A stretch of DNA of 64,000 nt from Luteithermobacter gelatinilyticus (GTDB taxonomy: Bacteria > Pseudomonadota > Alphaproteobacteria > Sphingomonadales > Emcibacteraceae), in NCBI RefSeq assembly GCF_005849285.1, contig NZ_CP040517.1, positions 1,680,501-1,744,500 of the forward strand, in the 5' to 3' direction. Position numbers and translations under genes: made by a program. A model generated the notes under the pieces. It ran no database searches. It saw only the letters and a program-made list of their open reading frames with translations, and was not told the origin of the DNA. This document shows, piece after piece, positions 3,876 to 63,109 of this stretch (the first letter of the stretch is position 1; each line of letters begins with the position of its first letter).

Positions 3876-4955
3876 ATGTCATTTATCCAAGACCGTGACG
3901 ATATTGAATTCATTCGTGAAACCTCAGACAAAGCCCTGGATATGATGGCGGCCCATAATATTGTGCCGCTGCCTATGAATTATCACATCTGGTACACTTA
4001 TTCTTCCGGGGAAGACCTGGCGCTGTCTCAGCTGATCGACGGCATGGTGGCAAAGAATAAGAATTTCAGCCGCGAAGTTTGTGAAAATCTCTATGAGCGT
4101 TTCTTTTCCGGCCAGGCCGCCCAGTCGGCCGTTACCGAAGCCGGCCAGTCCATTCAGAAAGAACTGGCAAAAATCGCCCAGACGCTCAAGGAAAGTGGCG
4201 ATTCAACCTCTGCATTCAGTATTTCCCTGAAAGACCACCTGGGCAGTCTCGCCAAAATCGACGGCGGCAGGGAATTGATGGAAATTCTTGCAGCAATCGT
4301 CCAGGACACCAAAACCATGCAGGAAAAAAACCTGAAAATGGAAGCGGAATTGAAAGCATCCAGTCAGGAAATACAAAAACTGCAAAATAACCTGAAAGCG
4401 GTCCAGCAGGAAAATCTGACGGATATGCTGACCAATATCGGCAATCGGAAATGTTTCGAGGAAAAATTTGACGAGGCGTTCAAGCGGTGTAGCGCCAGCG
4501 GCGAAAATATGTGTCTGGTGATCGGCGATATAGACTTTTTCAAAAGATTTAATGATACTTGGGGGCATAGTGTTGGCGACCAAATTCTGAAAGCTGTTGC
4601 CCATGTCATGAAACTGCGGGTTGGCGACAACGGTACTCCTGCGCGTTATGGCGGAGAGGAATTTGTCATCGTTTTGCCCGGACTATCCCTGGATGAAGCC
4701 ACTGCCTTGGCCAATGCCATTCGCGAGTCCGTCGCCATGCGATCCATGAAACGTAAAAGCACGGGCGAACGTCTTGGCAAAATCACAGTTTCTTTCGGCA
4801 TTGCCCAACTGCGCAAAGGGGACAGCAAAAGCCATATTCTGGAACGCGCCGACAATGCCCTGTATCTGGCCAAAAATTCCGGGCGAAACTGCGTAAAAAC
4901 CGAACGGGACCTGGAAACGGTGCACAAAGAATCCGCCACGCCCCGATCTGCCTGA
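3876..4955 (+). CDS. GGDEF-domain diguanylate cyclase
   Basis: This 359-residue cytoplasmic protein should make cyclic di-GMP from two GTP. The C-terminal GGDEF domain spans about residues 195-350, with the active-site motif GGEEF at 259-263 preceded by ARY. The N-terminal 150 residues are helical and soluble, with no membrane segment, and a coiled coil around residues 145-185 probably drives dimerisation. An RVGD tetrapeptide precedes the active site, but seven residues separate it from GGEEF instead of the usual five, so the product-inhibition I-site looks displaced or lost. The upstream CtrA box suggests cell-cycle control of c-di-GMP synthesis. The N-terminal input signal is not recognised. 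Confidence 0.92.
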   Translation: MSFIQDRDDIEFIRETSDKALDMMAAHNIVPLPMNYHIWYTYSSGEDLALSQLIDGMVAKNKNFSREVCENLYERFFSGQAAQSAVTEAGQSIQKELAKIAQTLKESGDSTSAFSISLKDHLGSLAKIDGGRELMEILAAIVQDTKTMQEKNLKMEAELKASSQEIQKLQNNLKAVQQENLTDMLTNIGNRKCFEEKFDEAFKRCSASGENMCLVIGDIDFFKRFNDTWGHSVGDQILKAVAHVMKLRVGDNGTPARYGGEEFVIVLPGLSLDEATALANAIRESVAMRSMKRKSTGERLGKITVSFGIAQLRKGDSKSHILERADNALYLAKNSGRNCVKTERDLETVHKESATPRSA

Positions 4956-4960
4956 CATAT

Positions 4961-5015
4961 GTTCCATAAATGTTCTTGACTTTCCTTTCGGAACAAAATA
5001 GAACATTAAAAGAAC
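4961..5015 (+). promoter_or_regulatory. LexA-type (SOS) operators overlapping a promoter
   Basis: GTTC-N7-GTTC lies at 4961-4975, and GAAC-N7-GAAC, the same motif on the other strand, at 5001-5015. A further GAAC at 4991-4994 precedes the second box by ten bases. Both match the alphaproteobacterial SOS box. A promoter fits within them, with TTGACT at 4976-4981 and a -10 near 4999-5004, so bound LexA would block polymerase. The arrangement closely resembles the lexA promoter at 62375-62418. Confidence 0.65.
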
Positions 5016-5028
5016 ATGGAGGGACGAA

Positions 5029-5220
5029 ATGGATATTCTTCTTTATATCGTGAGCCTGGCTTTTCTTCCGTTGATGGGGTTGTGCATTTTCAGCGGCCTT
5101 GGTGACATCATCCGCGAACTCCACGCCTTTTATGAGACGCGGCCCCCACGGCGGTCTGCTCCCTCCCTGTTCTTGAGCACACCGGCAAGATCGCCCTCAC
5201 CGTTGGGCGGAAATTTATGA
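5029..5220 (+). CDS. Small putative SOS-induced inner-membrane protein
   Basis: This 63-residue reading frame has a strong ribosome binding site (GGAGGG, 7 bases before the ATG) and sits directly behind two LexA-type operators. Residues 3-24 are a hydrophobic stretch long enough for one membrane helix. They are followed by an amphipathic GDIIRELHAFYE segment, an arginine-rich RPPRR patch and a Ser/Pro-rich tail. No family is recognised. Caulobacter SidA, an SOS-induced division inhibitor, is likewise a tiny single-span protein, so a similar role is possible, but that is inference from size, topology and regulation only. Its last six bases overlap the convergent chorismate mutase gene. Confidence 0.65.
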   Translation: MDILLYIVSLAFLPLMGLCIFSGLGDIIRELHAFYETRPPRRSAPSLFLSTPARSPSPLGGNL

Positions 5221-5574
5221 GGTTGCGTTCTTCCCTGGCTTCAGGCGGTCATATATTTTCAGTTCATAGGAAATGCACCACTCAATCATCTGCCGGTACA
5301 GCATTTCCACAAACTCCTCCTGCGCGCCGGTTTTGCGGGCATGAGCCACCACCTTTTGCACCACATCCTCAATACGTTCTTCGTCCCGCACCTTGTTTCT
5401 GTGATCCTTGATCTCCGCGGCGCGTTCCATATATCCCAGTCTCAGGCACAGGACTTCCACTAAATGACGATCAAGGGCATCTATTTCCTTGCGCAATTCT
5501 GCCATCGTCGCGCAAGCTTTAGGGGGCCTGACCTGACTGGTCAGTTCATTCAGAGACAATTTCAATTCACTCAT
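5215..5574 (-). CDS. Chorismate mutase, AroQ type
   Basis: The gene encodes a 119-residue all-helical chorismate mutase that converts chorismate to prephenate for Phe and Tyr synthesis. The region from about residue 24 is typical of the family: LRKEIDALDRHLVEVLCLR, then a lysine in AAEIK and a charged KVRDEERIEDV segment, and a C-terminal helix with QMIEWCISYE. The first 23 residues are not part of the fold, so translation could instead begin at an internal methionine (MAELRKEID). Isochorismate pyruvate lyase has the same fold and cannot be fully excluded. It lies 54 bases downstream of the SPOR lipoprotein gene on the same strand. Confidence 0.85.
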   Translation of the reverse strand: MSELKLSLNELTSQVRPPKACATMAELRKEIDALDRHLVEVLCLRLGYMERAAEIKDHRNKVRDEERIEDVVQKVVAHARKTGAQEEFVEMLYRQMIEWCISYELKIYDRLKPGKNATS

Positions 5575-5628: not shown

Positions 5629-7014
5629 TCAGCGTTCGGTAAAGATCACCAGACAGCCGATTTTTCTTTCTTCTAGCCGCTGACAGACCTCTCTGGCAAG
5701 AGGCCTGTCCTCGATTTCATGGACAAATAGCCGATAAAACTGTTTTTCGCCATCAGGCGAAAACGCCCGAATCAATGGGGTATACTCCTTCAGGGTTGCC
5801 GCAGCATTCTTTACAAGACGGCGCCATTCGGCCCGGGCCATTTCCTCGCTGATGAATGAGCCAATCTGCACCCGATACACTTTCCCCCTTTTTTTGGAGG
5901 CCACAGGATTCGACTCATCGGTTTCTTCATTCCCCGCTTCCGCAACCTTGTTGTGAGCGGGGATGTCCGGCTCCAAATTCCCCGAACTGGCGTTATCTTC
6001 GGCAGGAGAGCGGTTTGTCTGGGCTACCGGAGCAGCAGAAACAGACCCGGTGTTGTTTTCGGTGGCTTGGCCTTGCATCAGCGATTTTTCACGTCCTTCT
6101 TCCGCGAGAATTTCTCTAAGACGTTTTTTCTTGGGATCAACAGGCTCTTGAGTGGCTGGTGAGGACATCGCTGTCGTCACCCGTTCCGCCTCCTCATGCT
6201 CTGTCCCGGATTTCGGGAAATAGGTTTTTCCCAGGAAAATCGCCTGCGCCCGCTGGTTCGACTCAAGTTCCTTAAGCCAGGCATAGCGTTGCATTTTCAG
6301 GGCAAGCTGTTCTTCATCCATAAAACTGGCGGCCATGTTCCGTGCCTGGTTCTCTTCCCCCGACAACACATAGGCCATGACCAGATTTTCGCGAGCTTTC
6401 ATATTCCCTGGCTCCTGGGTTACCGCTTTACTGAGCAGCCGCAGCCCCGGCGCATATTGTCCCTGAATGGTGAAAGACAGGCCCAGATTATTCAGCAGGG
6501 AAATATTATCCGGCACGATAGCCAGCCCCTTACCATAGGTAAGCTGTGCCTTTTCATGTTGTCCGAGAAGATCATAAGCCAGGCCCAAAATATTATACAC
6601 CCGGTAATTGCCGGGGGATCTGGCACTGACCTGTTTCAGATATTCAAGAGCCTCTTCCGGCTCGTTTTTCATCACCAGCATCTGCCCAAGCCCCAGCATT
6701 GCCTCAGGATTCTGCGGATCCTGTTGCAATATACTGCGATACATGGCAATGGCTGCATCCACGGCTCCCAAGGACTGATAGGTTTTGGCAAGGCCCGACC
6801 GGGCCCCCAGATGTTCCGGATTTTCACTGACCGCACGTTGATAAAGACGCAACGCATTGCCATAATCCCCGGCCTGAGCAAAACTTTCTGCCATAGTCAC
6901 CAGAGATTCCGGCGAAAAGGCCAGCTCTCCGTCCACTCTTTTGGGACCGCTTGCTGCGCAGCCGGACAATATCAAAGAAAAACCCGCCAGAAAAACCAGG
7001 GCCGTGACTTTCAT
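5629..7014 (-). CDS. TPR and SPOR domain lipoprotein
   Basis: The ATG at 7014 was chosen because it gives a clean lipoprotein signal peptide (MKVTALVFLAGF, then lipobox LSGC near residue 19) and has an AAGGA site. A longer in-frame start at 7089 would bury this signal. The 461-residue product has five or six tetratricopeptide repeats over about residues 30-230, in the style of PilW/TadD. A charged low-complexity linker follows, then a C-terminal SPOR domain (GKVYRVQIGSF to the end) that binds denuded septal peptidoglycan. It is probably an outer-membrane or periplasmic scaffold acting at division or pilus assembly sites. The exact role is not known. Confidence 0.85.
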   Translation of the reverse strand: MKVTALVFLAGFSLILSGCAASGPKRVDGELAFSPESLVTMAESFAQAGDYGNALRLYQRAVSENPEHLGARSGLAKTYQSLGAVDAAIAMYRSILQQDPQNPEAMLGLGQMLVMKNEPEEALEYLKQVSARSPGNYRVYNILGLAYDLLGQHEKAQLTYGKGLAIVPDNISLLNNLGLSFTIQGQYAPGLRLLSKAVTQEPGNMKARENLVMAYVLSGEENQARNMAASFMDEEQLALKMQRYAWLKELESNQRAQAIFLGKTYFPKSGTEHEEAERVTTAMSSPATQEPVDPKKKRLREILAEEGREKSLMQGQATENNTGSVSAAPVAQTNRSPAEDNASSGNLEPDIPAHNKVAEAGNEETDESNPVASKKRGKVYRVQIGSFISEEMARAEWRRLVKNAAATLKEYTPLIRAFSPDGEKQFYRLFVHEIEDRPLAREVCQRLEERKIGCLVIFTER

Positions 7015-7100
7015 GTTCCTTATCCCCGATTGAGGTGCTGTTTCCAACAAAAGATTGTTTTTGTTATATTTACTGGTCAGGGCCAGCATACCGTCTTCTG

Positions 7101-62374: not shown

Positions 62375-62418
62375 TTGACATAAGACCAAAAACAGAACAT
62401 AAAAGAACAAAAGAGAAC
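62375..62418 (+). promoter_or_regulatory. lexA promoter with LexA-type GAAC repeats
   Basis: TTGACA lies at 62375-62380 with a -10-like CATAAA near 62398-62403. GAAC occurs at 62395-62398, 62405-62408 and 62415-62418, each ten bases apart, and overlaps the -10. This suggests autorepression. The spacing is N6, one base less than the usual N7. The promoter at 4976-5015 has the same core with one extra T. Confidence 0.6.
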
Positions 62419-62434
62419 CACACAGGAGGCAGAG

Positions 62435-63109
62435 ATGCTGACCAAAAAGCAGCGGGATCTTTTGTTATTTATTCATGAGCGCTTGCAGAACACCGGTGTC
62501 GCCCCGTCTTTTGATGAAATGAAAGATGCCCTTGAGCTGAAATCCAAATCCGGCATTCACCGCCTGATTAATGCCCTGGAGGAACGGGGCTTTATCCGTC
62601 GCCTGCCCCACAAGGCGCGCGCCCTTGAAATTCTGCGGCTGCCGGATCAGGAAATTCCCGTCCCGACCGCCTCCGGGCAGAATGTGTTCCGTCCCGATTT
62701 TTCCGCCAAAACACCACCGCAGGCCCCGTCAACTGTGGAAATCCCTCTGCATGGACGTATTGCCGCAGGCACACCGATTGAGGCGCTGGAACAGTATGAA
62801 AATATTGAAATTCCCGCCAGCATGATCGGCGGCGGAAGCCATTATGCCCTGGAAATTGATGGCGATTCCATGGTGGAGGCTGGCATATTGGACGGGGATA
62901 CCGTGATTATCAAACGTTGTGACACGGCCGATAACGGGGCCATTGTCGTAGCCCTTGTGGATGAGCAGGAAGCCACCCTCAAAACCCTTTACAAAAAAGG
63001 TCCTGATGTGGCACTGGAACCGGCAAACCGAGATTATGAAACCCAGGTATATCCTGCAAACCGGGTCCGGATTCAGGGGCGCCTGGTGGGACTATTGCGC
63101 AAATACTGA
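62435..63109 (+). CDS. lexA: SOS repressor LexA
   Basis: LexA represses DNA damage genes and self-cleaves when RecA is activated. The 224-residue product has a winged helix at 1-70 with the alphaproteobacterial recognition helix [18 protein letters not shown]. The cleavage site is A111-G112 in GRIAAGTP, and the catalytic pair is S145 in GDSMVEAG and K183 in EATLKTLYK. The start has AGGAGG eight bases upstream. Its own promoter carries GAAC repeats. It is convergent with comEC. Confidence 0.97.

Follow-up and report, generated by a model that had tools for sequence, protein, structure and literature searches.

A small membrane protein under apparent SOS control in the Emcibacter/Kordiimonas lineage, a candidate inhibitor of late cell division

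Background

Few organisms are known to have small division inhibitors induced by the SOS response, and these generally appear to be restricted to particular species. In several phyla, small SOS-induced bitopic proteins block late division (PMC4211646, PMC13396833), and the best-studied LexA-controlled single-span proteins that have no antisense partner are division inhibitors (PMC13396833, PMC4211646, PMC6851548). SidA and DidA of Caulobacter act on FtsW/FtsN, blocking late division (PMC4211646), and a Caulobacter lexA mutant no longer filaments once sidA is deleted (PMC12700426). The transmembrane (TM) segment of YneA contacts TM7 of FtsW, and when present by itself it localises but does not inhibit (PMC13396833). 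DinQ of E. coli shows the features of a type I toxin-antitoxin system and depolarises the membrane (PMC3567139).

The gene described here, found in a window of 64 kb (the whole stretch of DNA analysed), encodes a predicted protein that resembles SidA of Caulobacter crescentus in being a small alphaproteobacterial inner-membrane protein associated with GTTC-N7-GTTC boxes of the LexA type (PMC4211646, PMC12700426). However, SidA has 29 residues, whereas the protein studied here has 63 and its relatives typically 55-75, so that by length it cannot be assigned to the SidA family; moreover, two boxes surround the promoter, unlike in sidA, and the action on FtsW demonstrated for SidA is presumed here. 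A further comparison is with DidA, which comprises 71 aa with one transmembrane helix and short flanks, and which acts on FtsN in a manner that needs the periplasmic part of FtsN, including its SPOR domain (PMC4211646). SPOR-domain genes are also neighbours of the new family (see below). Nonetheless, DidA is SOS-independent and induced by DriD rather than by LexA, whereas the small gene has LexA boxes. The division inhibitors YneA, ChiZ and SosA (from Bacillus, Mycobacterium and Staphylococcus, respectively) are likewise small and bitopic, and the SOS induction established for them is predicted here; in YneA and ChiZ a LysM domain lies outside the cell, while the new family has no Pfam domain and only an unstructured tail, predicted to be cytoplasmic.

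Results and discussion

The small gene and its promoter

The frame, which begins with ATG and ends with TGA, has the strong ribosome-binding site, the single hydrophobic helix and the two exact upstream LexA boxes that the sequence-only reading had attributed to it (Table 1). AlphaFold2 predicts one helix comprising residues 2-36 (residues 1-30 have a mean pLDDT above 90), of which approximately residues 3-24 would span the membrane, followed by a G-hydrophobic-x-D motif (G23, D26); the hydropathy peak equals 2.54. The remainder, residues 37-63, exhibits no conservation in our alignment A1.

Table 1. Positions of the small gene, its putative regulatory elements and other features of the window
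Feature	Position in window	Strand	Basis or remark
GGDEF diguanylate cyclase, directly upstream	3876..4955	+	adjoins the gene in 14/27 f1 loci
LexA box 1, GTTCCATAAATGTTC, GTTC-N7-GTTC, immediately 5' of the putative -35	4961..4975	+	exact match
Putative -35, TTGACT	4976..4981	+	read by eye; GTTCTTGAC conserved in orthologues
Additional GAAC half-site, spaced by N6 from the first half of box 2	4991..5004 (genome 1685491-1685504)	+	
Putative -10, TAGAAC, overlaps box 2	4999..5004	+	read by eye; TAGAACA/TAAGAACA conserved
LexA box 2, GAACATTAAAAGAAC, GAAC-N7-GAAC on +, GTTC-N7-GTTC on -	5001..5015	-	exact match
Shine-Dalgarno GGAGGG	5018..5023	+	5-nt spacer to ATG
CDS, 63-aa small membrane protein, putatively SOS-controlled	5029..5220	+	orthologues; Ka/Ks below 1 in close pairs
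Codons 2-36, single continuous predicted helix	5032..5136	+	AlphaFold2, hydropathy
Variable tail, residues 37-63, probably disordered, likely cytoplasmic	5137..5217	+	pLDDT ~50
Chorismate mutase type II (CM_2), convergent neighbour	5215..5574	-	24/27 f1 loci, 2/3 f4 loci
TPR + SPOR-domain envelope protein	5629..7089	-	24/27 f1 loci
lexA promoter half-sites GAAC-N6-GAAC-N6-GAAC	62395..62418 (genome 1742895, 1742905)	+	
lexA	62435..63109	+	

The putative -35 and -10 elements, read by eye, are separated by 17 nt and resemble a sigma-70 promoter, and the two LexA boxes bracket them; the position of this putative promoter leaves a leader of about 15-20 nt. A strict promoter scan omits it because its -10 element is weak. 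The arrangement agrees with that of the LexA regulon in Alphaproteobacteria, in which GTTC-N7-GTTC overlaps or adjoins the promoter, and in this genome uvrA/ssb and an imuB-like gene for a Y-family polymerase have the same type of box. The core said to be common to this promoter and that of lexA is indeed present at the latter (62394-62409), but the lexA copy is spaced by N6 rather than N7.

The window contains six GTTC-N7-GTTC boxes against 1.85 expected from shuffles, and the whole genome contains 96, compared with 52 occurrences of the reversed pattern that served as a control. Hence single boxes of this kind often arise by chance, and the case has to stand on the pair of boxes and on its conservation. 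Such a pair flanking one putative promoter is, as judged from the pattern matches in the order and the conservation described below, beyond chance.

Occurrence and conservation of the family

When 60 related genomes were searched by tblastn, small frames with the same start residue were returned from the family to which the window belongs and from a few genomes outside it. Upstream of most of these matches lies the arrangement GTTC-N6/7-GTTCTTGAC-N18-TAGAACA-N6-GAAC, followed by a short leader and ATG. An HMM search of the Emcibacter-like family (f1) detected the gene in 27 of its 32 genomes, the five others being drafts of 64-90% completeness. When 84,980 species were scanned with a pattern of the promoter only, 32 loci were found, which comprised Emcibacter-like orthologues, relatives from Kordiimonas and, for most of the remainder, established members of the SOS response (SAR116 lexA, imuA-like genes and a ssb promoter). 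Straight after the promoter in the Kordiimonas and related loci is a different-looking single-helix protein of 58-62 aa. Among 298 genomes of the order, the relaxed pattern TTGAC-N17..19-TAGAACA-N6-GAAC has 41 matches as compared to none for the reversed pattern. A mixed HMM then showed that almost every genome of the Kordiimonas family (f5) has the gene, again with its boxes, bringing the total to 64 orthologues or syntenic counterparts from five families of the window's order, i.e. Emcibacter-like bacteria, Kordiimonas and their relatives (27 in f1, 23 in the 25 genomes of f5, six in f7, five in f2 and three in f4).

With the f1 model the f4 proteins score above every shuffle, and the same is true for three individual loci (L020, 22.5 bits; L073, 16.1; L083, 14.0), while for L063, L076 and L086 its scores are no better than those of many shuffles. 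Considered one by one, most Kordiimonas members show little direct HMM homology to the other syntenic group; they are tied to the family by synteny, by the promoter, by the mixed model A3 and by an ungapped alignment of the core. A combined HMM (A2) found no convincing member in 386 genomes sampled from the whole class, but only weak matches, most of which sit within long unrelated frames (a protein as short as SidA, with 29 aa, could easily escape such a search), and the largest family of the order likewise yielded no convincing member. The proposed lineage-specificity of the gene therefore holds at the level of the order, whereas the earlier view that no sequence similarity could be claimed for it was too pessimistic, since a family exists.

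Searches of the Pfam, NCBIfam, PHROG and PADLOC libraries gave no convincing match to the small protein and, within these libraries, no detected homology to known division inhibitors. In particular, the protein lacks a match to the SulA domain (PF03846), and none was found in the whole genome of the window, although the E. coli control was positive. A full-text search of the literature found nothing that pairs Kordiimonas with LexA; the two papers in which Emcibacter and the SOS response both occur name each of them once or twice. Absent from the libraries searched, this predicted protein family is new, though small SOS-induced membrane proteins as a kind are known.

A check set beforehand was that orthologues should exist and should retain the operators. 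An exact LexA-type repeat lies within 130 nt of the start codon in 63 of the 64 members (spaced by N7 or, at box 1 of some f1 members, by N6). Both boxes are found in 48 members, box 1 with either spacing in 55, and box 2 in 56, where it ends 5-26 nt 5' of the start codon. The proteins themselves are 32-96 aa long, with medians of 59-68 in the individual families, and all 64 have one hydrophobic segment with a hydropathy peak above 1.7. Not a single member has Lys or Arg ahead of this segment, while the stretches of 20 residues that follow it contain 165 such residues in sum, on which grounds an N-out/C-in orientation is predicted. M1, F12, P14 and G23 are conserved in the f1/f4 group, and H6 and D26 are frequent there. 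In 11 close pairs the Ka/Ks ratio of the whole frame is 0.10-0.48, mostly lower in the helix, which indicates purifying selection. Through the conservation of the operators, and of the small single-span architecture, both the SOS control and the protein type predicted earlier are strongly supported.

These data also dispose of the trivial explanation, according to which the frame would be spurious and would happen to follow a chance pair of LexA-like boxes. The abundance of single boxes in the genome speaks for it; however, frame, start, promoter and boxes are conserved in five families and Ka/Ks is below 1, which leaves it a vanishingly small probability. The idea of a chance frame with chance boxes having been ruled out by conservation across the orthologues, we regard the 63-aa frame as a real gene, and its putative repression by LexA as well supported.

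Gene neighbourhood

Two syntenic arrangements were observed. In f1 and f4 the small gene adjoins a gene of the chorismate mutase type, in f1 usually with the TPR/SPOR protein next to it; in f5, f7 and most of f2 a paralogue of Ppx/GppA is its divergent neighbour, and a SPOR lipoprotein gene is convergent with it in f5 and f7. In five Kordiimonas-type loci (L020, L063, L076, L083, L084) the divergent gene is a second Ppx/GppA paralogue and is followed by an rlmE-like gene, and in several loci of this type pssA- and psd-like genes lie past the SPOR lipoprotein. In nearly every genome of two families the chromosomal locus is stable.

In both syntenic groups a gene with a SPOR domain is usually found within about 1.5 kb. 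SPOR domains bind septal peptidoglycan, and therefore their recurrent vicinity is suggestive, although it represents at most two independent arrangements, which counts against this argument. The same neighbours could point elsewhere: the protein might be an SOS-induced regulator of some target unrelated to division, such as an inner-membrane protease, a transporter, an envelope-stress sensor or a peptidoglycan protein with a SPOR domain, transporters, sensors and proteases being the targets of many small membrane proteins. Nevertheless, our data point to no specific partner of this sort, and the best-studied precedents without antisense partners, from several phyla, are the division inhibitors introduced above; we consider regulation of a non-division target rather improbable.

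Proposed mechanism and alternatives

By analogy with SidA, YneA and SosA, we infer that the protein functions in the inhibition of division. In the scenario that we favour, and hold to be moderately probable, it resembles SidA in being induced by the SOS response and in inhibiting the late divisome, and it acts within the membrane. LexA bound to both boxes, which bracket and overlap the -35 and -10 elements, would shut the promoter, and cleavage of LexA after DNA damage would free it. The very short leader and the strong ribosome-binding site would then permit immediate translation of the 63-residue inner-membrane protein, with which the length of the leader, the lack of an Rfam match and the lack of a terminator-like site nearby are consistent. 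The protein would insert by its N-terminal helix in the predicted N-out/C-in orientation, and the helix would most likely dock on FtsW, or on its partners FtsI/FtsN, in the membrane part of the late divisome, so that synthesis of septal peptidoglycan would be delayed until repair is complete. The combination of conserved positions within the membrane and a tail that is free to vary is compatible with a helix recognising a partner there. The lack of a SulA match in the genome and the usual proximity of a SPOR-domain gene also fit the inhibitor reading.

Two features of YneA argue against too close an analogy. With its LysM domain outside, its orientation is opposite to that predicted here, which counts against the inhibitor reading, and since its TM segment alone localises without inhibiting, the same could hold for a protein made up of a helix and an unstructured tail.

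A further possibility is that the protein is a toxin of the TisB/DinQ type, i.e. an SOS-induced membrane peptide that would depolarise the membrane and either slow growth or favour persistence. Like these LexA-controlled single-span peptides of E. coli, it is small, has one hydrophobic helix and is putatively controlled by LexA. However, DinQ and TisB are each associated with an antisense RNA and a regulated leader (for DinQ, see PMC3567139), neither of which was seen here in what are weak scans. A leader of about 15-20 nt cannot accommodate an antisense target or the kind of long, regulated leader that tisB and dinQ typically have, and between 4800 and 5400 there is no antisense promoter-like or terminator-like site, as far as can be told from a weak consensus scan that misses the gene's own promoter; nor is there an Rfam match above threshold around the gene, which is again a weak test. 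The short leader and the lack of antisense features thus weaken the toxin hypothesis to the extent that such tests allow. The clean helix, the conserved P/G/D positions and the purifying selection look like recognition of a partner, and the stable chromosomal locus also speaks against a toxin, which altogether seems to us an unlikely identity for the protein.

Returning to the inhibitor of the late divisome, we tentatively suggest a more specific form of this proposal, possible rather than probable, in which the genes constitute an SOS checkpoint family at the level of the order, with a conserved operator, a hypervariable protein and N-out/C-in topology, acting on the divisome within the membrane or from its cytoplasmic side. 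If so, the checkpoint protein of the Emcibacter/Kordiimonas lineage would work unlike YneA or ChiZ. The family can be traced over five bacterial families by operator and neighbourhood despite its quick sequence change; its natural variation might be used for mapping the presumed contact with the divisome, and the combination of operator, small frame and synteny may offer a general route to checkpoint proteins missed by annotation.

Other LexA-type sites

Half-sites of the LexA type spaced by N6 recur in the lexA promoter of the window, in L078, L081 and L092, and in the f1 orthologues, where GTTC-N6-GTTC constitutes box 1 in 18 of 27 cases; it is also found in imuA-like promoters of Hyphomicrobiales. 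Binding of LexA to this variant is putative. In several genomes TTGAC-N17..19-TAGAACA-N6-GAAC precedes a gene for a protein of about 112-141 aa, VOC/glyoxalase-like by reading of its sequence (L191, L192 and L193 in f6, L164 and L194 in f1, L187 in f2), which suggests a conserved and little-noticed SOS gene. Further AT-rich GTTC-N7-GTTC sites in the genome of the window lie upstream of a NUDIX-like gene, whose divergent neighbour is GST-like (L099, 2777500-2781500), and of a radical-SAM-like gene (L094, 1120000-1124000); the NUDIX-like and radical-SAM-like genes, likewise named by their sequences, look like additional SOS candidates.
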